DNA of 64,000 nucleotides from Nilaparvata lugens. Taxonomy: Eukaryota > Arthropoda > Insecta > Hemiptera > Delphacidae. The notes below the pieces were generated by a model. The model made no database searches and was not told the DNA's origin. It saw only the letters and a list, made by a program, of their open reading frames with translations. This document shows positions 6,912-40,027 of this stretch, piece by piece. Position 1 is the first letter of the stretch. Every line of letters begins with the position of its first letter. The stretch spans positions 63,855,417-63,919,416 of the forward strand of contig NC_052508.1 of the NCBI RefSeq assembly GCF_014356525.2, given 5' to 3'. The position numbers and the translations under genes were made by a program.

Positions 6912-7803
6912 TCGCGAGTTCAGTTAACAGCTCAAGCTGTCACTCGTATCCTACATTCCATCTCACTCTATCCATCAAGTCTCCCTCTGCCAAATTCCTC
7001 TCGCACATGTCACTCTTCACTTGCTTCATCCAAGTTTCAGGTGGTCTTCCCCTCTTCCTTCTTCCTGGTGGTTTCCAATTCAATATCCTTTTGGGGCACC
7101 GTTCATCATCCATTCTTTGCATGTGTCCCATCCATACAAGGCGCCTTCTTTTGATCTCATCCACTGTTGAAATCTGCTTCCCGACGCTTTCCCTGATCTC
7201 CAAATTCCTGACCCGATCCATCCGAGATACACAGTAACTTCTTAGAAGAGAATCCATTTTCACTTCGTTCAGTCTCTGGCTGTCCCTTTTTGTCATTTCC
7301 CATGTTTCTGAGCCATATATCAGAATGCTCTGTACAATGGAGTTGTAAACTCTAACTTTGGTACTGCTCTTAATGCTTTTCGACCAGAGCATAGAGTTTA
7401 GTCTCTGTGTAGCATGCCTAGCCTTCCCAATTCTATTTGTGATCTCTCTTCTTGAATTACCTTCCGAGGTTATAAGACTGCCAAGATACTTATACTCTTC
7501 ACATTTCTTAATTACTTGATCACCTTCACAGGGATCGTTTGCATCACCACCGGAAACTAGATATTTTGTCTTTTTATAGTTGATCTGCATACCGTTTTCT
7601 ACATATGCCTCTACAAGCTTTCTAAACATATAGGTGATGTCATGCTCATCTCCGGCCATTATGACTTGGTCATCAGCAAATATCAGAGAGTAAATAATGT
7701 GATCCTCATTTATTGGAATTCCCATATATCGGCATTTTTTTCCATCCAATCAATATGTGCTCCATGTACAATTTTAAAAGTGATGGTGATAGACAACAAC
7801 CTT
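6912..7803 (-). pseudogene. RTE-like LINE reverse transcriptase fragment
   Basis: A 5'-truncated non-LTR retrotransposon. The main frame, 6940-7749, shows the catalytic FADDQVIMAG (RT motif C), NGMQINYKKTKY, EEYKYLGSLIT, then YGSETWEMTKRD and the C-terminal RRLVWMGHMQRM and GRRKRGRPPETWMKQ, an order typical of RTE-clade elements. Upstream in another frame, about 7745-7803 reads QGCCLSPSLLKLYMEHIL, the RT segment before motif C. The frame is broken at the A-run near 7740, where a TGA precedes the main frame. The endonuclease domain and the first RT motifs are missing. The short 3' UTR ends at the TA tract. It would have supplied nicking and target-primed reverse transcription, and this copy is dead. 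Confidence 0.9.
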
Positions 7804-13398: not shown

Positions 13399-14996
13399 GG
13401 AAATTACTATTCCACTTTGTCATATTATTAACTGTAGTTCCAATTCAGGTATTTGCCCCAATATTTTCAAATTGGCTAAGGTTATTCCTCTATACAAGTC
13501 AGGTGATAAGGGAGATAAAAATAATTACCGTCCAATATCTTTACTGAGTGTATTTTGAAAAGTTATTGAAAAATGCTACAAAAACCAAGTGTCTCAATAT
13601 TTAAAAATAAACAAATTATTATCTGATTGCCAGTTTGGATTCAGGAACGACTGCAACTCTTCCAACTGCTTCTATCAACTGAGTGACTACTTGAGAAAAG
13701 GCATTAATAATAACAAATATATTCTTTTGCTGTTTGTTGACCTGGCAAAGGCTTTCGATTCTATCGATCGCGCAATATTGCTCAATAAATTGAAAAATAT
13801 TGGGATAATTGGCGCTTCTCATGATTGGATCGGAAGCTACTTGTCGGGTCGCAAACAAATAGTAAACATAAATAGTCCATTCAGTTATAGTAACAATGGT
13901 GGTAACAATGAAATTAATAGCAATAATGTAAATAACAACAATACAAATTCTGTCGATAGTGAGGTGCGAAGTATCGATTTTGGGGTTGTCCAAGGAAGCA
14001 CACTTGGGCCAATCTTATTCCTTATATACATCAATGACATTATCAAATCTGATATATCGGGTAGAATGCTACTGTTCGCTGATGACACTGCAGTCTATTT
14101 TGAGGCAGACAGCTGGATGGAAGTCTACGAGAAGGCATCCAGAGACTTAATTACACTCAAAAATTGGTTTGACGAGTATGAATGCGAAGAAGACCAAAAT
14201 TCTACCAATATTCCTTCATAAAAACCGCGCCCCTCCGGATAATTTTCTGCTAAAACTACATTGTTGTGGTCAGGTGTGTAATGATGACTGTGATTGCCAG
14301 GTGATTGAATCGGTCAACGAGTTCAAATACCTGGGTATAATCATTGATAATAATTTATCTTGGCATCCACGTATTTTCTACTTGAAAAAAAATTACGGAT
14401 ATTGATTTTTGTTTTTTCAAAACTGAATGGCATTCTTAACACGAAGGAATTGAGGACAGTGTATCACGCACTTGTGCAGTCAATCCTTACCTATGGAATT
14501 ATTGTCTGGGGAGGTGCGTGTGATACTAAGATTGCAGAACTTTCAGTGACTCAGAAAGCTATTATCAAAGCCGGACTGGGCCTGGAAAGAACATATTCTT
14601 CCGAACGTTTATTTGTTTATTTTAATGTTCTAACTATTAAGAAGCTTTATGTTAAATTTGTCTTAATGTATGCGTTCAAGAATAAAATGAACTTAAATAT
14701 TCCAGCACAACAAGAACATAGGACTAGAAGCGGACTCCTTCTGCATCCCAATTTAGAGAGAAATTCGCGAGCTGTTTGCGACAGAAATGTCTCTTATGTA
14801 ATTAATATGATTCTGCGGAATGCTCCCCCCCATATAAGTCATCCTGGTTCTTGTACTGTACTAAAGTACAAGAAAGTGCTACATGAATGGTTGGCATCTT
14901 TAAATGACTATCAGTGTGGTAGATTGATCAAATCAATGTATGTGTAACGCCTTGGAATTTATTCCCTCATGTGTGTGCGTAGTGTGTGTGTGTGTG

Positions 14997-15065
<69 letters not shown>

Positions 15066-15421
15066 CCCTTCCCGTGCGAATGTTCATAGTTGAGCTTGAA
15101 TATTAAAATTAAATAAGTATTTTTATCTTTTATTTAAATAGTTTTGATATTGTATTATTCAATACTATTAAATATTGGTAGCTATCTATAATAGTAATAT
15201 TACTTCTCTGTATCATAGATAAGTTATCTGTGTAAATTAAATTTTAATATACTTATGCGAACTCTTACTCACGAACAGACCGACAGGTCCATGTGAGTAC
15301 AGTTTCAATTATTTTGTGAAATAGTTTAAACATAGATATAATTTTCTTTAAATTAGTACATTTACTTATGTTTTATAAGTCTTCTTTTTGTGAAACAATA
15401 AATCAATTCAATTCAATTCAA
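13399..15421 (+). pseudogene. Jockey-like LINE, 5'-truncated, with 3' UTR and tail
   Basis: The RT domain begins near 13405 and shows LAKVIPLYKSGDKGDKNNYR (motif 0/1 region), LLSDCQFGF, VDLAKAFDSIDR (motif A), VVQGSTLGPILFLIYIND (motif B region), LLFADDTAVYF (catalytic motif C, about 14068-14100), then VNEFKYLGIIIDNNLSWH and the thumb segment YHALVQSILTYGIIVWGG, ending at a stop at 14947. It is dead: an in-frame TGA lies at 13556-13558, and the frame shifts near 14177 and again at the A-run near 14385. The endonuclease half is missing. The 3' UTR includes a GT microsatellite (14968-15063), an AATAAA at about 15399 and a tail of ATTCA units ending near 15421, as in several non-LTR families. 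A (GATA)-type tail or poly(A) is absent. Confidence 0.88.
14968..15063. repeat. (GT)n microsatellite in the LINE 3' UTR
   Basis: About 95 bases of GT repeats starting 20 bases after the ORF stop. It lies between the coding end and the rest of the 3' UTR, so it may have grown after insertion. Confidence 0.95.
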
Positions 15422-15509
15422 TGTGTAGTAGGCCTACTCTTTTTACTGTATTTGCTGACATAACAGATTTCGGGTAACCTATTCTTCCCATTATCAAGAT
15501 GATGGCCTA

Positions 15510-15609
15510 ATGAAAAATATTAATCTTTATATAATAATATATATATAGATTAATATTTTTCATTTCACATATATATATATATATATATATAATATATATA
15601 TATATATAT
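15510..15609. repeat. 17-bp inverted repeat and (TA)n tract at the left edge of the LTR element
   Basis: ATGAAAAATATTAATCT (15510-15526) is perfectly complementary to 15547-15563. A (TA)n tract follows to 15609. The LTR element begins at 15610, so it inserted into this TA tract. The matching TA sequence on the other side begins at 24384. Confidence 0.85.
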
Positions 15610-18130
15610 TGTGGTGCGGTATTTTACTCGCCTCACATGTGTAGAGAGATTTGCCAAATCATGTAGTGCTGTATTTAAATGCCTCACGTTGGGCCGGCAA
15701 ATCATGTGGTGCGTTTTTTAACGGCTTCACACATGTAGGGTGAACCTTGTACTGAGTCAATGGTGTAGAGGCTATAAATTTTGCAGTGCGTGTGTGGACG
15801 CTGAGTGAACACCAGACTGATTGATTCACTACAAGATTCATACAATTGTCGGAATCGCGGGAGGCCTAAACGCTCGCTCACCCTTGATTCTTCTAATGAC
15901 AGATTGTATAATGATGAAATTTTTATAAGTAGTGTAGCGGACGCTAAACACTGAATACGGATACCTTAAAATTATTACCTGTGAAGAATGAGCATACAAA
16001 ATCATACAGGTCGAGCAAAAATCCCGATGTAGATAATTTACGGGACTGCGTCTCTAATAAGTTCTGAAGGATTAAAATACGGTATTTGAACCAAATATCG
16101 TTCAGAATATATTTCGAGAACAGAGTCTTGTCGGGTTTTAAGCTCTATTGTAGGAATTTATATGATCTATGGCTGCCACTGCTGTACAATTGATGCGTTC
16201 GCTCCTAAGTCGAGGTAGGTAACAGATAAAAGCTGATGTATGAGCAGGTAAGGACAAAGAATAAATATCTCGATCTGACCCCACTCGCTACATCCACTTA
16301 GACCTGTTCCAATATCCAGCTTGATTCAATTATTCCAATGATTGTATTCGATCGGTTCTTGATGATATAGAACGTATCAGACACAATAATTGACAGGCTT
16401 AAGAAATAATCGAACTCAGAAAGCGAATTAACAAAACTGAAATATATTATAATAAAATATGTAATCATACAGTGCAGATTCAGAATTTGATTTACAGGTT
16501 GATAATAATTTAGCATTAATAGAATAGTTAAAAATTTTCTTGTGCTTGCATGATACCATGCGTGATTCAACAGAATTTTACAATTGATAAAATTGAACAG
16601 TTTTGAAAAAATAGTGAAAAAAAAAAATGAATTATAGAAAATATTTTTTAAAATGCTCGGGGTCGTGGTTCAGGCAGCGGAGGATAGTCAATCAACTACA
16701 AATTCTTATAAATTTAATATGAATAAATTCTAGACTCTTAAATGCTAAAGCGCTTGTCGGCGTGGCCAATAATTTAACGAAGAAAAAATTTATGTTTTTC
16801 TGCACTGAAATATTTTCGAAGCGTAGATTGGGGCCCCTTTTAAAACTTATAACTCACGTGAATTTCCTTGGCGGTCGTGGTTTTCTTCTTTAGATCAAAA
16901 ATCGTTTGATCGGCGGCAATCCAGGCTTCGGTTTCAGCACGTGGGGAATTTTAATTTAAATATCTCCTTCACCGAATTAATTAAGGGATAATTTACTTTA
17001 AGCTTTTAAATTTATCGATTGATGAAAACAGAAATTTACAAATAACAAATAAATTGGCCTAAAATATCGGCTCACAAATAGAACATTTAAAATCGAACAA
17101 GAAATTTTCACAAATAGGTCTTGGTAACTATAAAAGAGATCTGCACGGTGAGGATTTCAAAAGGGAAGTGCTGTCTTTTCTCTAAGCTTCTAGGCTAGAC
17201 CTTGCTTCTCAGAATCTCGATGTAATAATTTGCATAAAAATTTGCCATTGGTAGAACGCTTGTGACGTAAACATGACGTCAGTGGCAAGCAGTAGAATAT
17301 AATTCTTTTAATTACAATAATAATTCAATTTATGTAATTCTTAAAACTGCTTAATCTTCTAGACATAGTTCCTCTCATACAATGTACATGTGCTAGTGTA
17401 ACTGATAAGGCAGGGTTGTTGTCTGATAATAGATTAACATGTGTTGCTTTCAAACGATCACCTTCTTGGTGCTATTTCTATGCACTATGATTGGCTTAGA
17501 CCTGCCAAAGAGATTTAATTACCATGTGGTTCAGTTGAATTAAATCATTAATAAATTAATATTCTTATACAATTTTTATTAGGTTTGAGATTGTTATAAT
17601 TAATTTCTGTCGTTTTATCAATAATATAATTTCATGCTATGACCTATTTAGTTACAATAAGACCTGACATATAATATAATTTCTTAAATAATAAATAATT
17701 TCAACGATAACACATACATTTTATTTTTTTATTTGAAATTCTTGATCCTTTATGGATAGTTTTAATTTTTAGAGATGGTATTATATCTTACGTGAAGCCA
17801 GCGTGACATTTGACAATACTTTGAATCAGTCAGCTGCGTTCGAACTGTTTTAAAAACATCTGATCGATAGTAAACAAAGTGTAACCTCAAAATCAGTGAG
17901 CGATTCATAAATAATTTGTGCTTTATTTGCAAAATAATTATAATTTTATTGAATAATTTTCCTAGAAAAATATTCAGTACAGAACGGTACTCTTATCAAA
18001 TATACAGTTACTGATAAGTAAGCTTTATCGCTCGGTCGCTAACTATTCCTTTAGCAAATTCTTTCATTTTAAAAGGTAATCACAATTTTTCTCTCTTTTC
18101 ATGAGATCTATTTGAAAGATTCATCACACA
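15610..18130 (-). repeat. 3' LTR of the gag-only element
   Basis: 2,521 bp, nearly identical to 21864-24383. I counted roughly 12-14 substitutions and small length changes in A/T runs, for example CACGTTGGG versus CACATTGGG and ATCGGCGGC versus ATCGGCAGC. That is about 0.5 per cent divergence. Open frames of 60 and 90 codons inside occur in both LTRs and show no domain; I do not take them as genes. Confidence 0.92.
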
Positions 18131-18142
18131 AAAGCCCCCAGG
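18131..18142 (-). promoter_or_regulatory. Polypurine-tract position
   Basis: Minus strand CCTGGGGGCTTT abuts the 3' LTR start. The five-G run is where plus-strand priming is expected. The purine stretch is short, so the exact primer boundary is uncertain. A similar ATGGGGGCTTGAGG lies at about 19513-19526. Confidence 0.5.
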
Positions 18143-19494
18143 ATATTTTAAATAGGTAATTGGGAGACGAGTCGAAACAATGACTATTTGAAAAATCCGA
18201 TATTGTGATGAATACACTATTTCATCTCCTTACTTCTACGAAAACTCCACACTTAACACTAAAAACAATATATCGTGCACTTTTGGCTACGAGAAAATAA
18301 ATAATTGATTGTTCCTTTCATTGGATACAATCGAAATACAATAATTAATGAGGTCTCTTTGGATCCTTCATTAAAACAACTCCACAACTTCCATTCACGG
18401 GTGGCTTATGAGCAGACCCATAACTATAACAAATATACAAGATTTCACATATTACTTCTTAAGATTTGAACAGTATTTGCAACAAATATAGATTTTCATC
18501 ATTTTTTCATGGTTATTACAAGTTTCGACTCTTTATTCTGGCTTTTACATAAATTGGGTGAGAATGTGATTTTACTTCGGTGACTTGACAATCGTCTACC
18601 GTTTGACTCGAGCAATTTCTTATTTGCGCTTAGTATGTTGTGTACAAACGGGGCTACACTTGAAATGGCTTTCTTGATTTTTATCAATGTTGGTTACAAA
18701 TATTAAGTCTTTAAGATTATATTTATCAATTTGAATTACAATTCATGATCTTTTGATGCAACAGTAATAAATTTCACATTTGAAGGTAAGAATTTCATTT
18801 TCTTTGGAGTTTTTTAGAGATACATTCATATAACACAGAACATGCGCATTTCGTGCAAATTAACATAAATATATATTTTTGGTTGCGTTTTTTACTTATA
18901 ATTCCACATTAAATAACAGGTTACAATAATTAAATAACGATATTGCTTTGATTCTATACATTGACTCTAGGATTTCGCACACATTGGTTGGTGGGACGAA
19001 GAAAATTATCGAACAGGCTTTGGTTCTGAGTAGATTTTTCTATTGATTCTGTATTTCAAGGTTAGATTTACACATTTTTTCGAATAAACTTTGTTTGTTT
19101 TCTTTCCTCCTATTCACTACTAATTTCATCTGATTTCCAATTTACAAATATTTTCTGTTGATAATATAACTCTTGTTTCTGTTTTTCAGTTGTGCAGATG
19201 ATACCAGGCGATTGTTTCGGTGATGATTGTAACATGAGGTGGATGGCTTGATCAGGTTGGTAAATTCTTAAAGTTGTTTTCAGTTTTATTTCTTGATTTA
19301 AAGTTGATTTCAATTTCTTCTTTTGAAGTGAATTGTTGTTTATTAGATGAGATGTGGCGAAGTTTAGGTTATGTTGATTATGATTAGGCTGCAGTAAAAA
19401 GATGCCAGTATGCAAGGATATGATTTGATGGGTAGGCTGTGACTATGAAGAAGTTTGATAGCTGATGTACTTCACAAATGTAGCTTCCAATTGA
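18143..19494. other. Interior of the LTR element with no recognisable pol
   Basis: About 1.35 kb between the end of the gag frame and the 3' LTR. The longest frames are 62 and 101 codons on the minus strand (18499-18687, 19110-19415). They lack RT, RNase H or integrase motifs such as YMDD, YVDD or the DDE triad. It may be a long 3' untranslated region or the remnant of deleted pol. Confidence 0.6.
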
Positions 19495-19635
19495 TTAAAA
19501 GATTATTATTTCCTCAAGCCCCCATCTAAATTTGATTTCGGTATCCTCCAAGGTCCAATTCCGATTTGTGACTATCCATTTTATTAAATTTGGCTTAAAA
19601 CGAATGTGCCTGTGGTGTAGATCATTTCCTACAAA
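19495..19635 (-). pseudogene. In-frame continuation of the gag array beyond a TAA
   Basis: After the TAA at 19636-19638 the same frame stays open for 46 codons to a TAA at 19495-19497. Its start, FVGNDLHHRHIRFKPN, is a fourth copy of the HRHVRFK motif, and it ends with WTLEDTEIKFRWGLEE. So the stop either truncated a longer protein or is read through. Which one cannot be decided from one copy. Confidence 0.6.
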
Positions 19636-21030
19636 TTATTCATTTCCTCTTGGTCGGCCGGTGACATGCAGTTTGATATCCTTAAATCTGACATGCCGGT
19701 GGTGTCTGTGTGTCTTTCCAAATAATCCTTTTCTTTTCTGCATGGTGGTGTACAGTTGGCTTGATTTTAACCGGACATGACTGCGGTGGTTGTAGGTTCT
19801 TCTTGATATGGTTTTTCTCCTATCATGCATGCTTGTAAAAGATTTGATGTACGATTTCAGCCTAACATGACGGCGATGTAGATAAATTTTTCTTGAGACC
19901 ATTTTTCTTTTCCGTGGAGCTGCTATTTTACTTGTGTGTTGTTTTGATTTAGAGGTTTTTATTTTCAGTTGTGATTTCAATTTGTTGTGGGTTTCTGTTT
20001 CATTTCTATTGTTTAGGTGACTATCTTCATGAATGCTGGGTTTATATGTTGCAGGCGCTGTCCTCGGTGGATGGACGGTGATGTGGGCGGTCGGCGGTCC
20101 GGGCTGCTCTTCTACGCGGCGGGCAACGTCCTTGGACTCCTGGTGTCCAGCGCGCGGTGGTACGAGCTGTCCCTCTATGCCACGAATGATGTCCTCAGCT
20201 TGGCGGGCGATGTCGACTGGTTCCTCTCGGCGTTCGGCGGGGTGCATCGCGACTCCAGTCTTGACATTCTCGGTGGGTTGGTTTTCCATACATGTGTTAT
20301 GTTCGCTTGCTTGTTTGACTTTAACCACCTTTATTGTATCCTTCTCCACATGTATATGTTTCTTAATGCTGACTTCGACGCTGATTTTTCCCATATGCAT
20401 ATCTTCAGATATCCTATCCAATCGGTTATTTGTTTCTAAAATTGATTTATCCAGACACTCAGCTAATTTTTTGATGGTTTTATCTGTGTCGCGGAATGCT
20501 CCATCCATCCGCTGACTCAATTTCTCCAAACCCTGTTCATTTACCTTCTTTGCTTCTTGAACTTCCCTTTTTAATTCTTCCTTTGTTTGTTTGTTGCCTT
20601 CTTTTAATTCTTCCTTTGTTTGATCGCTTTTTTCATTTAAGTTTTTTATTTCTGCATTTGTTTTATTTATTGCTTCATTGGTTTTCCTTATTTCTTTCAG
20701 GATGAGGGTCCAGTCAACGGCGGGAGTGGGTGCATGGTTATCGGTTAGCCGCTGGTTTTTTATCCGAGCAACGGTGCGAGAAATGGGAGTTCCTGTTTCT
20801 GAGACGTCATCGACTGAGTGCTCTTCTGATGTTTCATCCTCCGGCTCTTGGGCTACCAACGTATCCTCCACCAGAATGCAGCTCTCCTCCACCTGCGTCG
20901 AAGATAAATCATCCAGTACATTGGGATGGAAATCGGCGGATGCGGCGGCAGATGCGGATGGCGGCGAACAATCGGGTGAGATGTCTTCGGTGTCCGACAG
21001 ACTTGGATTGACCTGGTCGTTTCCTGCCAT
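19636..21030 (-). CDS. Gag-like coiled-coil protein of the LTR element
   Basis: The frame is open from 21171, but the ATG at 21030 (MAGNDQVNPSLSDTED) looks like the real start and gives 464 residues; the 47 upstream codons are hydrophobic and unlike the rest. Residues about 1-95 are acidic and Ser-rich. Residues about 106-213 form a likely coiled coil with repeated KTNEAINKTN and QTKEELKE motifs. A Pro-rich spacer follows, with the related segments VDIARQAED and KDVARRVEE. The last 90 residues are strongly basic, with three repeats of about 30 residues built on HRRHVRLKS, HRSHVRLKS and HRHVRFKDI. There is no CCHC zinc knuckle, so the basic array may do the RNA binding. That is an inference. 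The role would be particle assembly and packaging. The leader from the primer site to the ATG is about 820 bases. Confidence 0.7.
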   Translation of the reverse strand: MAGNDQVNPSLSDTEDISPDCSPPSASAAASADFHPNVLDDLSSTQVEESCILVEDTLVAQEPEDETSEEHSVDDVSETGTPISRTVARIKNQRLTDNHAPTPAVDWTLILKEIRKTNEAINKTNAEIKNLNEKSDQTKEELKEGNKQTKEELKREVQEAKKVNEQGLEKLSQRMDGAFRDTDKTIKKLAECLDKSILETNNRLDRISEDMHMGKISVEVSIKKHIHVEKDTIKVVKVKQASEHNTCMENQPTENVKTGVAMHPAERREEPVDIARQAEDIIRGIEGQLVPPRAGHQESKDVARRVEEQPGPPTAHITVHPPRTAPATYKPSIHEDSHLNNRNETETHNKLKSQLKIKTSKSKQHTSKIAAPRKRKMVSRKIYLHRRHVRLKSYIKSFTSMHDRRKTISRRTYNHRSHVRLKSSQLYTTMQKRKGLFGKTHRHHRHVRFKDIKLHVTGRPRGNE

Positions 21031-21833
21031 AGTTTGCGGAAAAATAGCGCAACGAAAGTGTGCAGTGAATAAACGTGAAAGTGTTGTGATATACAAAATA
21101 ATTAATAAGAAATCCAATAGAAATTGTGATAGCTTCGTAGTGAGTGAAATACAGAAAAAGTGGTTTAGCAATGTGTTCAGTGATAAAATGAGTCAAGTTA
21201 GCAATATCATTAACATAAAAATGACAAGAACATACAGGATACACAGTGAACACTTATGCGGTAATACAGGTACGCCTCTTATAATTTATTATTACTATTA
21301 TTATAAATATCTTACTTTTATAATTTCTTGCCGCAATTCAATATATAGGCTAGTGTTCTTTGCAAAATTTTATATAAAAGGGGCAGTGTTTTGTTTGAAT
21401 TATTCCGCAATATATCCGTGATTTAATTTTACTTCCCTCTTTATGTTTTAAAAACTTTTAAAAATGTAAATAACTTCAATCCTCTTTTCTGTAAATATTT
21501 ATAAATTGTTTCAATATAGACCTAATATTCTTCAAATAATATGACCTTTCTTATGATATCTCTTATACCTATGACTTATAGTATGACCAATTTTCGAATA
21601 ACACGATAATAAAATTCTGAGTTCGATTTTCTCTCTAAAAATTCATCAATCGATAAATTTCTTTTCTGTTCAAAAATTGGGTATGGTACTTCTTGTTATT
21701 TTATATAACAGTGAACAGTCAATATTAAATTCGAAAAAATTCACAACCATGAATTTTTCACAAATTTTCCCATTGTCAGCGCTATAGTATACTGAGCAAC
21801 TAAATAATCCTCGTAGTCGATTATCCACCTCTT

Positions 21834-21863
21834 CAATGCCTATCACTGTTGGGCGCCAAATCA
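21834..21863 (-). promoter_or_regulatory. Primer-binding site region
   Basis: On the minus strand, five bases (TGATT) after the 5' LTR, the sequence TGGCGCCCAACAGTG begins. TGGCGCC at this place is the usual 3'-CCA-complementary start of a tRNA primer site. I do not assign the tRNA. Confidence 0.7.
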
Positions 21864-24383
21864 TGGGGTGCGGTATTTTACTCGCCTCACATGTGTAGAG
21901 AGATTTGCCAAATCATGTAGTGCTGTATTTAAATGCCTCACATTGGGCCGGCAAATCATGTGGTGCGTTTTTTAACGGCTTCACACATGTAGGGTGAACC
22001 TTGTACTGAGTCAATGGTGTAGAGGCTATAAATTTTGCAGTGCGTGTGTGGACGCTGAGTGAACACCAGACTGATTGATTCACTACAAGATTCATACAAT
22101 TGTCGGAATCGCGGGAGGCCTAAACGCTCGCTCACCCTTGATTCTTCTAATGACCGATTGTATAATGATGAAATTTTTATAAGTAGTGTAGCGGACGCTA
22201 AACACTGAATACGGATACCTTAAAATTATTACCTGTGAAGAATGAGCATACAAAATCATACAGGTCGAGCAAAAATCCCGATGTAGATAATTTACGGGAC
22301 TGCGTCTCTAATAAGTTCTGAAGGATTAAAATACGGTATTTGAACCAAATATCGTTCAGAATATATTTCGAGAACAGAGTCTTGTCGGGTTTTAAGCTCT
22401 ATTGTAGGAATTTATATGATCTATGGCTGCCACTGCTGTACAATTGATGCGTTCGCTCCTAAGTCGAGGTAGGTAACAGATAAAAGCTGATGTATGAGCA
22501 GGTAAGGACAAAGAATAAATATCTCGATCTGACCCCACTCGCTACATCCACTTAGACCTGTTCCAATATCCAGCTTGATTCAATTATTCCAATGATCGTA
22601 TTCGATCGGTTCTTGATGATATAGAACGTATCAGACACAATAATTGACAGGCTTAAGAAATAATCAAACTCAGAAAGTGAATTAACAAAACTGAAATATA
22701 TTATAATAAAATATGTAATCATACAGTGCAGATTCAGAATTTGATTTACAGGTTGATAATAATTTAGCATTAATAGAATAGTTAAAAATTTTCTTGTGCT
22801 TGCATGATACCATGCGTGATTCAACAGAATTTTACAATTGATAAAATTGAACAGTTTTGAAAAAATAGTGAAAAAAAAATGAATTATAGAAAATATTTTT
22901 TAAAATGCTCGGGGTCGTGGTTCAGGCAGCGGAGGATAGTCAATCAACTACAAATTCTTATAAATTTAATATGAATAAATTCTAGACTCTTAAATGCTAA
23001 AGCGCTTGTCGGCGTGGCCAATAATTTAACGAAGAAAAAATTTATGTTTTTCTGCACTGAAATATTTTCGAAGCGTAGATTGGGGCCCCTTTTAAAACTT
23101 ATAACTCACGTGAATTTCCTTGGCGGTCGTGGTTTTCTTCTTTAGATCAAAAATCGTTTGATCGGCAGCAATCCAGGCTTCGGTTTCAGCACGTGGGGAA
23201 TTTTAATTTAAATATCTCCTTCATCGAATTAATTAAGGGATAATTTACTTTAAGCTTTTAAATTTATCGATTGATGAAAACAGAAATTTACTAATAACAA
23301 ATAAATTGGCCTAAAATATCGGCTCACAAATAGAACATTTAAAATCGAACAAGAAATTTTCACAAATAGGTCTTGGTAACTATAAAAGAGATCTGCACGG
23401 TGAGGATTTCAAAAGGGAAGTGCTGTCTTTTCTCTAAGCTTCTAGGCTAGACCTTGCTTCTCAGAATCTCGATGTAATAATTTGCATAAAAATTTGCCAT
23501 TGGTAGAACGCTTGTGACGTAAACATGACGTCAGTGGCAAGCAGTAGAATATAATTCTTTTAATTACAATAATAATTCAATTCATGTAATTCTTAAAACT
23601 GCTTAATCTTCTGGACATAGTTCCTCTCATACAATGTGCATGTGCTAGTGTAACTGATAAGGCAGGGTTGTTGTCTGATAATAGATTAACATGTGTTGCT
23701 TTCAAACGATCACCTTCTTGGTGCTATTTCTATGCACTATGATTGGCTTAGACCTGCCAAAGAGATTTAATTACCATGTGGTTCAGTTGAATTAAATCAT
23801 TAATAAATTAATATTCTTATACAATTTTTATTAGGTTTGAGATTGTTATAATTAATTTCTGTCGTTTTATCAATAATATAATTTCATGCTATGACCTATT
23901 TAGTTACAATAAGACCTGACATATAATATAATTTCTTAAATAATAAATAATTTCAACGATAACACATACATTTTATTTTTTTTATTTGAAATTCTTGATC
24001 CTTTATGGATAGTTTTAATTTTTAGAGATGGTATTATATCTTACGTGAAGCCAGCGTGACATTTGACAATACTTTGAATCAGTCAGCTGCGTTCGAACTG
24101 TTTTAAAAACATCTGATCGATAGTAAACAAAGTGTAACCTCAAAATCAGTGAGCGATTCATAAATAATTTGTGCTTTATTTGCAAAATAATTATAATTTT
24201 ATTGAATAATTTTCCTAGAAAAATATTCAGTACAGAACGGTACTCTTATCAAATATACAGTTACTGATAAGTAAGCTTTATCGCTCGGTCGCTAACTATT
24301 CCTTTAGCGAATTCTTTCATTTTAAAAGGTAATCACAATTTTTCTCTCTTTTCATGAGATCTATTTGAAAGATTCATCACACA
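21864..24383 (-). repeat. 5' LTR of the gag-only element
   Basis: 2,520 bp, almost identical to 15610-18130. By the biology of the family it should hold the promoter and the R/U5 boundary, but I could not place a TATA box or start site with confidence. Confidence 0.92.
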
Positions 24384-24384
24384 A

Positions 24385-24451
<67 letters not shown>

Positions 24452-25184
24452 GCGAAATGGCACTCACTGACTGACTGACTGACTCACTCACTTTCAGAAC
24501 TAAAAATCTACCGGACCAAAATCGTTCAAATTTGGTAGGTACGTTCAGTTGGCCCTTCAGAGGCGCACTAAGAAATCTTTGGCGATATTTTAACTCTAAG
24601 GGTGGTTTTTAAGGGTTTAAAGTTCTTTTAGCTTGTATATTCTTCTTATTCCAATATCTTGAAATAAATTATAATTGAAATGTCCATATCATATGTTAAT
24701 ATAGAACTATAATCTAGAGAGTACCTCTTCGAAACAGTTGTTGCGGTAATTAAATTAAAATTTTGTCAGGTTGGCATTAAGTTGAGTTGACTTTGTTAGG
24801 TTGGCACCAAGTTGAAGAATCCAGGACCTCCTAAATACCAATTTATCCAATTAGCCAATATCAGCGTTTTCTCAGCTTTCCTGCTTTTCCTCACCTTCTT
24901 CAATAATTGATGGAAATATATTAACAAAAAAAAATCAGTACACAGGTTTAGCTGAGGTGGAAGAATTTTGTTCGCCAAAGATACGCCGATATAGTAACAG
25001 GGTGTTTTTCGAGATAAAATTGACATAATACCTTCAAATTCGGTACAGAGGTTCCGCTAAGGTCCACATGCAGGCGAGCGAAGCGAGCCCGTTGATCTCA
25101 TTTTTGGACGATCTAGTCGGGCGTCCAGGGGGCGGAGCCCCCTGGCTAGATGGATATGGCGAGCGAAGCGAGCCTGACGGCTAG
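24384..25184 (+). mobile_element. Helitron-like element, copy 1
   Basis: A (TA)n tract (24384-24446) leads into GACTGACTGACTGACTCACT, then AAATCTACCGGACCAAAATC. The 3' part carries GGCGAGCGAAGCGAGCC twice, a GC hairpin GGGGGCGGAGCCCCC, and ends TGACGGCTAG with a T following. A 3' end in CTAG before T with a nearby hairpin suits a Helitron, but a clear 5' TC end is not seen. A second copy lies at 60496-61201 on the other strand, in the same order. No Rep/helicase coding region is present. The 76-codon minus frame inside is not taken as a gene. Confidence 0.6.
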
Positions 25185-35759: not shown

Positions 35760-36910
35760 ATCTCCGTTCAGAGCAGACAGAGAAGGAAAAGGAGAAAGAG
35801 AAGGCGAAGGAGAATGAGGTGGTAATGCTGGTGAAGAGGATGCAGGTGAAAAGGTAGATTGTGAAGGAGAATGATAAGGAAAGGGAGATGAGATAAAGTC
35901 AAAAATAAGAGAAGGAGAATGAGAAGAACATATGGGAGAAATTGAAGAAGAGAAAAGGAGGAGGAGTACGTGTAGGAGATGCAGAAGTGAATAAGAGAGA
36001 AGACGATGTAGTGGGAGAAGGGAGAGAAGGGAAAGTAGAAGAAGATGAAGATGGAGAAGTAGAGAATGTTCAGGAAAAAGTTATTGTGGAGAGGTTTCAG
36101 TAGAAGAGGGAGGGAATGGAGAAGGAGATGATATGAGCGAGAAGACGATGGAGAAGGAAGATAAGGAGATGAGAAGGAAAGGGCAAAGATATAGAATATG
36201 GATAAGAAGAAGAGAGAAATGTGGAAGAGAGAATGAATGAGGGATAAGGAAGAGATCAGTAGTAGGCGTAGAGTTCAAGCGGGTGTTGAGGATTGAAAAC
36301 GTTAGAAGAAAGTGAAGAGAAAGATGTATGGAAAGAAGTAGAACTGTAGTAGAAGAGGAATCTGAATGGGTGATGAGAATTTGAATAGGAGGGAGAACGA
36401 CTACAAAAAATGACGTTGAGAGGAGTAATAATGTGAAGAATTGATGTGAAAAACGAGGAAATTAGAATAAGGAGAAAGATCAGGAAAACTACGGAGGATA
36501 GGAGACTGAAAATCGGAGAAAAATTATAGAAATGCAAGGATTAGGGAAAAGGAGGAGGATGAAAAGAATAAGTAGTAGAATAAGGAGAAGAAGGAGGAAA
36601 AGAGAATTAAAAGTGGCAAGTGAAGAGGGGAAAGAGGAAAAGAAAAACAATGCTGAGTAGGAATGAGATATGGCTGTAAAGAGGAATTGATAGGATGAAA
36701 TAAAGAGGAGAAGAAAACGGATGAGGATAGAAAGAAAAATAAGATGAAGAGCAAGTTATTGGAACAGTGCTCTTTGTATTGTCAGAGCAGAGAAGAAATC
36801 ACAGACAATAGAATTTTAATGCGTTTTGTTAGTGAGAGATAAGGTAAGAGATAGAGAGAGTGAGAGAGAATGATAGTGAGAGAGAGAGTGAGTAAATGAG
36901 AGGGAAGAGT
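35760..36910. repeat. Purine-rich (GA/GAA/GGA) tract, 1.15 kb
   Basis: The plus strand is dominated by A and G without a fixed period. The minus-strand frames (36081-36278, 36256-36537, 36524-36754) are Ser/Phe/Leu chains caused by the composition and are left out. Confidence 0.85.
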
Positions 36911-37034
36911 GCTGCTGGTTACCTCTTGCTGTTTTTACGTCGGAAATAATTATTTAATTCTCTTTGCGGGGCGCGGAAGAGAGAGACGGATAGACGGTGT
37001 GAGTGGGTGTAGAAAATAAAAAAAATTGGTCCAT

Positions 37035-37075
37035 GGGGGTCGAACCCATTGCAAGAGAGTACATGGCACGTCGTA
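37035..37075 (-). mobile_element. Possible SINE head (B-box only)
   Basis: Minus strand TGCAATGGGTTCGACCCCCA holds a good B box (GGTTCGACC), preceded by TACTCTC and followed by a T-rich stretch. I cannot find a convincing A box, so the call is weak. Confidence 0.35.
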
Positions 37076-37099
37076 AATAAAATTTATGACCAACTGTAA

Positions 37100-37780
37100 G
37101 ACTGTAAGATGGTTTCAGCTCCTGGTGATGTCTTAATTTCTTACATACTCACTCCCTACAGTCTGCAATTATTGTTTGTAGGCTGCATTATGATCTTCTC
37201 ATTCAGAATTTGAGCCTATATTGATTATTATTATCGTAGACGATTTACAGACGAAAGATTAATCCAACTATCACTTCTTCTTTAGTGGAAATCGGTATGA
37301 ATTTAATTTATACTCTTGATATTCATTCAATTGTCGATTTCAATTTCAATGTTATGAGATCATTCATTGATGATCGGGATATTCAAGACCGATTGTAAGT
37401 TATCATGTTGTATTCAATGAACTCAGATATTTTAAATTTATTTGAATATTCAGATTTGAGAGTTGTTCTGGTGATATCACTTGATCTCACTTGAAATTCG
37501 TCCAATCTTGGAAAATGAAGTGTCAATCGATTTGTGATTGAATTTAACAAAAGAAGTTATTCTTGTTATTTGTTCATAGAATGAAAGGATTTTTGGTTCT
37601 TCAAGAAATAACATTTTGAACAGACGCCATTTTGTTTTATAAATTTGAGAAACTGTCATATTTTTTGTAGCTCTGTCTAGTTGACATAGATGTTTGTGCA
37701 AATATTCAATCCTTCATTACCAGCCATTATTTTAAACAAAATGGTTTGTGAAGAAGCAAAATGACGGCTGTGTGAGTAAG
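37100..37780. other. No gene supported
   Basis: Unique AT-rich sequence. The 74-codon minus frame at 37477-37701 has no known domain. Confidence 0.3.
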
Positions 37781-37787
37781 GCTAGCT

Positions 37788-37962
37788 TAGCTACACACAC
37801 ATCGAGTTTTATCCATACGATATTTTTCCGTCCTTATAAATTCTATCAGATTAAACAGATGATTTCAAACAGATGATGTTTGTTAAGTCCCGTTTAATCT
37901 TATAGAATTCACGAGTACGCCACTACATCGTACAAACAAAAATCGATATGTGTGTGCAGGGC
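37788..37962. mobile_element. Foldback MITE, about 175 bp
   Basis: Left part CTACACACACATCGAGTTTT and the complement of the right part, CTGCACACACATATCGATTT, are inverted repeats. Further in, AAATTCTATCAGATTAAAC pairs with the complement GAATTCTATAAGATTAAAC. It has no coding capacity. The target duplication is not clear. Confidence 0.7.
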
Positions 37963-37968
37963 TCTACT

Positions 37969-39584
37969 AGGGTCTTTCGAACAGTTTGAAAGTGATACAT
38001 AGATATTTTCTTACACAGGAACAATGCCATAGAATATTGGTAGAAAGTTTTGAAACTCTCTGTATTACAGAGAATTCAAGCTTTTTCAAATCATCATATT
38101 AGTAAGGAACAAATTATGGTGATAGATAGAGCATTATATCTAGTACCATTATATCTAGTATCATTATATCTATTGTTAAGTATTTTAAGTGAATAATATA
38201 TTTGCCATGTTACGTTCATATTTCTCATTAAGGTTACATTGATTTTATGGGAAAAATCTTCTCAGTGAAGCTTCTACCCAACTCTCTGCTATGGAGTTGA
38301 AATTCTTTACTCCAAAATCAATCTGAACCCGCCTTTTGTATCATTGTTCAATCATTTGATGCACATCGTTGATCTGTCCAGGCTCCCTTACAGGATTCAA
38401 CAACATTTCGAACAATCCTTAACTACAAATTAGAAACAATAAATCCTCAGCTTTGTATGGCAGAATTTCCTCTCTCCTACCCTTTCCCCTCATCCACTCC
38501 TCTTACTGATTTTTCCGTGTCTGTTCATCCAATTTCCGATTATTCTTTTCAGTTTAGCGCTCATTAGGAATTTATGAATTCGTTTCTGATCAATATTCGA
38601 TCATGTTTCGCTTTCAAAGTCGGGACGCGAAGATGTTCAGCCCAAACGAGACTCTAATAATCTTGATGTTCCACTTGATATACGATGGGGACATGTGAGG
38701 GATGGGAACTCATGCTTCCACTTTCGAGAACATGTTTTTGGAACTCATTTTATGTAGCCTAATCCTGATCATCAGCAGAAATCAGGAGCAGAACGAATTT
38801 TGCCACCATGAAATCCGACAAACAAGATTCCAAAAGTTTCAGTTTATATCCTTCCACTCATCCTGTCCCTCTCTTCCTCATTCAAACCTACTTTTTCTCT
38901 CGTACCCACAACTTTTTCTATCTTTTCCCCCTTATAACTCTTCACCTCCTTCAGTTGCCGCCGAATAAAAAATTATACATCAGCAAAGATTCACTTTTTC
39001 AGAAGCTGATTTTTTCATGTACTCACCCGTAATTGGCTATTTTTGAAATCACGTTTCGGCTTTCGGATTAACAACTCTTCAGTGTCTCTGAACGACTTTT
39101 GGTTACAATATAATTGAATAATATATTTACTGAATTGAACTGTATTGGATTATATTCAACATCGATTCAATTATATTTACTGACAATTTTCAAAACGTAA
39201 AAATGCCATTGTCCGTAATAATTGAATTTTAAAGTTATTCAAAATTGAGAAGAGTTGAATTTGTCAATAGCTACTGAATGAATGTATGAAAGTTATGCAT
39301 TCTGATAGATGAATCAAATTAAATTCCTCGTAGAAGAAGAAGCGAAGTAGTTCCGTTGTCAAATTTATCTCTCATTCCAATTATTATTAAAGACCAGCAT
39401 CAAAGGAATATTAGGATCTTGAAATAATCATATCTTAATTTCATAGTCTGTGCTCTTTGAACTATGATGGAATTAATTCATTATTAGATCGACGATAATG
39501 TTCATTGATTTGAGCTACAAAACAATATTTTATTACAGATGGAATAAAATAGAGAATGCATTTATTCAAATGCTAATTAATATA
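37969..39584. other. No gene supported
   Basis: Small features only: ATTATATCTAGTA repeated three times at about 38130-38175 and a CT-rich patch at 38850-38950. The frames 38702-38968 and 38808-39032 cross this patch and lack support. Confidence 0.4.
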
Positions 39585-40027
39585 TAATTATTATTTTACG
39601 AAAATCCTAAATAAATGCTGCAAATCACCCCGAAGACCTCTGCTACTGCAGACATTGACAACAGGGTTAACAGCTGGTTGGAAATTCGATGAGAACTACT
39701 ATCCAAAAATTAGTTGCCAGCCCGGGAATCGAGCCCGTTACCTCCCAATTGCTAGTCAGGAATGCTTGCCCTTACACCAAACTGACAATCTGTGGATAGC
39801 AGCGCTCATTTTATACGTATAGATTGTCAGTTTGGTGTAAGGGCAAGCATTCCTGACTAGCAATTGGGAGGTACCGGGTTCGATTCCCGGGCTGGCAACT
39901 AATTTTTGGATAGTAGTTCTCATCGAATTTCCAACCAGCTGTTAACCCTGTTGTCAATGTCTGCAGTAGCAGAGGTCTTCGGGGTGATTTGCAGCATTTA
40001 TTTAGGATTTTCATAAAATAATAATTA
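39585..40027. mobile_element. Head-to-head inverted pair of tRNA-derived SINEs
   Basis: Arm 39585-39791 (minus) and arm 39821-40027 (plus) are each 207 bp and complementary with only a few mismatches (for example GAATCGAGCCCGTTACC against GAATCGAACCCGGTACC), with a 29-base spacer. The plus copy opens with GATTGTCAGTTTGGTGTAAG, an A-box-like segment, and has a perfect B box in CGGGTTCGATTCCCGG about 55 bases later. The arms match right to their outer AT-rich ends (TAATTATTATTTTA). No target-site duplication is visible around either copy. Confidence 0.88.

Follow-up and report, generated by a model that had tools for sequence, protein, structure and literature searches.

Introduction

Elements with long terminal repeats (LTRs) that lack pol and borrow the enzymes of other elements are already known, and they show what a retroelement has to provide in cis. 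An insect example is reportedly CM-gag, which, going by the title of a 1997 report by Bensaadi-Merchermek et al., is a transposable-like repeated element of Culex pipiens that contains only the gag gene; the comparison made here is with that title alone, and no sequences were compared. Among insect elements that are notable for the length of their LTRs, Ulysses of Drosophila virilis has LTRs of about 2.1 kb, and the Osvaldo/Ulysses clade, a conceivable parent group for the element described below, has both long LTRs and a tRNA-Lys primer.

Here, we describe an LTR element within a 64-kb window (the whole 64,000-nucleotide stretch of DNA analyzed) from the planthopper Nilaparvata lugens. The precedents set by TR-GAG elements of plants and by elements of Culex and Anopheles place it within an already known kind, of which it is another example. 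In the literature searched, no paper on the planthopper element itself was recognized. According to the portion of the source that describes it, the plant TR-GAG AT5TE33540 (ATCOPIA63) is mobile in Arabidopsis ddm1 and is similar to an element that is potentially autonomous (PMC8704663). Like the planthopper element, AT5TE33540 is described there as having two LTRs, a single open reading frame (ORF), and no pol; however, its ORF is given as a 562-aa GAG, whereas the ORF of the planthopper element has no recognized Gag domain (PMC8704663). Of the features that define TR-GAG elements, the lack of pol and the presence of one ORF were found here, whereas a Gag domain was not detected by Pfam searches, a CCHC scan, or a single-sequence structural model.

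The LTR elements described in Culex quinquefasciatus are also insect elements without pol, and one group of 38 is described as having no known master copy; however, in the part of the source that treats them they have no coding capacity, carry tandem repeats between their LTRs, and have LTRs of 208-315 bases among the rows listed (PMC3286476). Cluster 149 of Anopheles gambiae is likewise an LTR element with one ORF that, as presented in the relevant part of the source, is without conserved regions, but it differs in having 168-nt LTRs and two primer sites for different tRNAs, and in being grouped with a Copia element (PMC3212995).

Structure and Insertion Site of the Element

The original prediction described two 2.52-kb repeats with TG...CA ends that make up more than half of an LTR element, and both parts of this description were borne out. 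Alignment of positions 15610-18142 with 21864-24385 (blastn) revealed direct repeats at 15610-18130 (2521 bp) and 21864-24383 (2520 bp), both with TG...CA ends, that are identical at 2508 of 2524 aligned positions and differ by 13 substitutions and 3 gap positions. The element lies entirely on the minus strand, such that 21864-24383 is the 5' LTR and 15610-18130 the 3' LTR. Together, the LTRs account for 5041 of the 8774 bp of the element (57%) and flank a 3.7-kb interior. Read along the minus strand, the 5' LTR is followed by a primer-site motif, a mostly AT-rich leader of about 0.8 kb (21031-21847), an ORF of 464 codons (19636-21030), a 1.5-kb 3' region without long ORFs (18141-19635), a G-run, and the 3' LTR. 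No further copy of the LTR or the interior was detected in the 64-kb window (blastn, E 1e-3). By insect standards, 2.5-kb LTRs are long. The 13 substitutions in about 2520 bases correspond to an LTR divergence of 0.5%, which indicates, judging from the divergence itself, that the insertion is young.

The primer-binding-site motif TGGCGCCCAAC (21848-21858, minus strand) lies 5 nt inward of the 5' LTR and occurs only once in the window when both strands are searched; it presumably corresponds to the 3' end of a tRNA-Lys of insects. At the opposite end of the interior, the polypurine-type G-run TGGGGGCTT (18140-18132, minus strand) stands one base before the 3' LTR, although it is short and is broken by C and T. 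A correctly placed primer site and a G-run ahead of the other LTR had been claimed in the original prediction. Collectively, the matched LTRs, the primer-site motif, and the G-run confirm that the LTR-element structure is real.

The window holds two copies of the G-run TGGGGGCTT, and both are in the interior of the element and on its strand. The second copy (19524-19516, minus strand) precedes the 3' LTR by 1.4 kb and is close to where the in-frame open piece after the ORF ends, and our guess is that it could be either an internal plus-strand primer or a relic of an older 3' end. An origin of the 3' region as the remnant of an old LTR was considered and rejected, since no LTR alignment was better than E 0.076.

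The junction between the LTR end and the primer site is marked by a 16-base motif, CGCACCACATGATTTG, that has three sites on the minus strand within 111 bases (21857-21967). Two are inside the 5' LTR, at 21952-21967 (the reference copy, and thus with 0 mismatches by construction) and at 21909-21924 (2 mismatches), while the third is the junction itself (21857-21872; 1 mismatch). Repetition of the junction motif near the inner LTR end was recorded both at 21857-21967 and at 15655-15713. In the rest of the window, with both strands searched, there were no sites with up to 2 mismatches, 2 with 3 mismatches, and 5 with up to 4. After the first copy comes CCGGCCCAAT, in the place where the junction continues with GCGCCCAACA, a distant resemblance to the primer site. 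Such an arrangement could arise if the junction were duplicated and priming then took place at the inner site, which would make the LTR longer, although for a single element this is a guess.

Dinucleotide arrays flank the element, (TA)n on the left (15528-15609) and (AT)n on the right (24386-24447). Because (AT)n is present on both flanks, a target-site duplication is not readable, and the repeat match extends about 4 A's beyond the CA end, so that this outer end is placed only to within about 4 bases. Perfect (AT) runs of at least 8 units occupy 244 of the 64,000 bases of the window, and 88 of these bases are in the two flanks of the element. This single case may reflect a preference for insertion at ATAT. 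A search of 15000-25000 against Rfam returned no ribozyme and only one match of any kind, to mir-1277 on the AT array, which was rejected with 33.3 bits where the gathering score is 81.

Coding Capacity of the Interior

None of the 29 stop-to-stop pieces of at least 40 aa in the six frames of the interior (18143-21863) matched a Pfam family at the cut-off, where 28 pieces were searched at E up to 5 and 1 piece at E up to 1; the best match (E 0.029) was to an unrelated family. These pieces therefore include no match to the pol of an autonomous Ty3/gypsy-type element, with its PR, RT, RNase H, and IN. As a positive control, the same approach was applied to four further ORFs of the window and identified RVT_1 in two of them, in one case above the cut-off and in the other under it. 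When all six interior frames were scanned with simple motifs of RT, protease, integrase zinc, and zinc knuckle, nothing was found except one plus-strand FGDD, which was taken to be a chance occurrence. This included positions 18143-19494, where the original prediction had named RT or integrase motifs beforehand as grounds for its own rejection. The longest element-sense open piece in the 3' region is 110 aa, and this region carries no trace of pol. Thus, the conclusion that the element is pol-less, with no recognizable enzymes for copying or insertion, stands at the level of sequence comparison.

The ORF is far longer than expected by chance. From stop to stop it spans 518 codons, compared to a maximum of 246 in 1000 first-order Markov sequences modeled on the interior and a maximum of 242 (n = 1000) when the model was built from the ORF region alone. 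Its codon positions are biased, with T at 11% of first positions and A at 41% of second positions. The predicted protein comprises an acidic N-terminal part (residues 1-105, net charge -18), a coil-like and proline-free segment (residues 106-215), a linker with 12 prolines (residues 216-340), and a basic tail in which the last 124 residues (341-464) have a net charge of +33. It has four cysteines and no CCHC. The ORF thus looks like a genuine coding sequence, yet one without recognizable Gag character.

A single-sequence AlphaFold model of the protein had a mean pLDDT of 55 and a pTM of 0.25, with 265 of 464 residues below a pLDDT of 50. The only confident helix is predicted to run continuously over codons 107-212 (20395-20712, minus strand), a block with pLDDT mostly above 90 and a coiled-coil-like composition; a second long helix (376-434) and several shorter ones were modeled with low to middling confidence. 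The model contained no compact domain, although such a weak single-sequence model could leave a capsid fold unseen. A search of solved structures returned three chains (two V-ATPase G subunits and a designed helical protein; best E 0.13), which were taken as chance matches between coils.

The basic tail carries three copies of the motif H-[RHS]-[RHS]-H-V-R-[LF]-K (codons 385-450; 19681-19878, minus strand). A fourth copy, HHRHIRFK (I for V; 19594-19617, minus strand), lies in frame past the stop codon, within a 46-aa open piece (19498-19635). Not one of 20,000 shuffled tails contained the motif more than once; the pattern had been picked after the sequence was viewed.

Gag normally has a capsid domain. 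No Gag family was identified for the ORF in Pfam at E up to 5 or 1, where divergent insect Gags may be missing. Accordingly, the claim that the interior codes only for a coiled-coil Gag-like protein holds in part: there is a single long ORF with a coiled-coil-like helix, but the name Gag was given by position, and neither a capsid nor a nucleocapsid was recognized. We infer that the ORF may represent the Gag segment that precedes the capsid, fused to a basic tail.

Searches of proteins of about 255-812 aa, a range below that of longer Gag-Pol proteins, identified one relative of the ORF protein, the 268-aa protein LOC120352209 of Nilaparvata lugens. It was the only match to the whole ORF among the 7997 scored candidates sharing most words, and again the sole match to residues 1-115 among 394 candidates; for residues 325-464, none of 31 candidates matched at E up to 1. 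The similarity is confined to residues 180-256 of LOC120352209, which align with residues 34-114 of the ORF (50 of 81 identical, 62%), and the remainder of LOC120352209 matches neither the ORF nor a Pfam family. The gene model of LOC120352209 has therefore probably incorporated part of a related element, with its last third apparently fused to an unrelated protein. In collections that hold little or no insect DNA, relatives of the ORF were not confirmed in any of 5 pattern-matching stretches of viral contigs or any of 22 pattern matches in genome contigs, none were detected in phages, and the pattern of LTR end and primer site was not detected in viral contigs.

Mode of Propagation and Alternative Explanations

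The cis parts that reverse transcription by borrowed enzymes uses (LTRs, primer-site motif, and G-run) are present, and the lack of recognizable enzymes makes it most likely that the element moves with those of a partner. The original prediction that pol is absent agrees with the Pfam and motif scans, and the dependence on a partner that it also proposed is the best reading of them. We consider it reasonably probable that this is a non-autonomous LTR retrotransposon, recently inserted into an (AT)n array by means of a partner's enzymes, with an ORF that encodes an adaptor of Gag descent rather than a capsid. Its RNA would be transcribed from the 5' LTR and packaged into particles of a pol-bearing relative, where a host tRNA (probably tRNA-Lys) would prime reverse transcription and the partner's enzymes would copy and insert the element. 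The most likely ancestor of the ORF, which encodes a coiled-coil rod with a basic tail, is the Gag segment ahead of the capsid. If its product acts at all, it would do so as an adaptor that binds RNA or co-assembles, and not as a capsid.

With one copy in view in the 64-kb window, pol may have been lost from this copy alone. The main rival is a simple deletion derivative, in which capsid, nucleocapsid, and pol disappeared from this one copy of an autonomous element. What is left would be the beginning of Gag fused to a tail fragment that came from the 3'-terminal part of the coding region, in a dead element with no function of its own. The apparent lack of a capsid-like region in the ORF protein is consistent with such a history, as is the fourth tail repeat in frame past the stop, which gives the impression that a longer frame was truncated. 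The final ORF of an element commonly ends close to its polypurine tract, and the open piece past the stop likewise ends close to the internal G-run. Nonetheless, with only 13 LTR substitutions, the period since insertion was hardly long enough for the whole of pol to be lost cleanly, no trace of pol remains on either side, and the 1.5-kb 3' region is still present. We regard a lone deletion as somewhat unlikely.

A further rival, in line with the original prediction of a Gag kept for its own particle or RNA packaging, is that the ORF is a complete but very divergent Gag that still builds its own particle, as in a TR-GAG-like element. The position of the ORF directly after the leader would suit a Gag, and a coil with a basic tail would suit a self-associating, RNA-binding protein, but the ORF matches none of the Gag families at E up to 5 or 1, has no zinc knuckle, and is predicted, in a weak single-sequence model, to have no compact helical domain. 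Selection for a particle of its own is thus not supported where no capsid or nucleocapsid is recognized and the Gag label comes from position, and we consider a complete Gag highly improbable.

A bolder extension of the partner-dependent reading is that the element represents an insect LTR-element family that dropped capsid, nucleocapsid, and all enzymes, kept a coiled-coil adaptor whose repeated basic RNA-binding tail carries its own RNA into the particles of a partner, and grew its LTR by repeated copying of the junction. Taken as a whole, this reading is unlikely. If many copies were to keep the ORF open despite the lack of a capsid, packaging or co-assembly would be the one function that the element must supply itself.

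Other Features of the Window

Two RVT_1 fragments are present outside of the element, one on the plus strand at 13559-14221 (E 8e-20) and one on the minus strand at 6940-7749 (E 7e-5, under the cut-off), and both are LINE-like in our reading. One 2-kb block (36001-38000) has a strong strand bias of G over C (skew 0.43). Two tRNA-Ala (agc) genes are encoded in opposite orientation, 37 bases apart, at 39713-39899.
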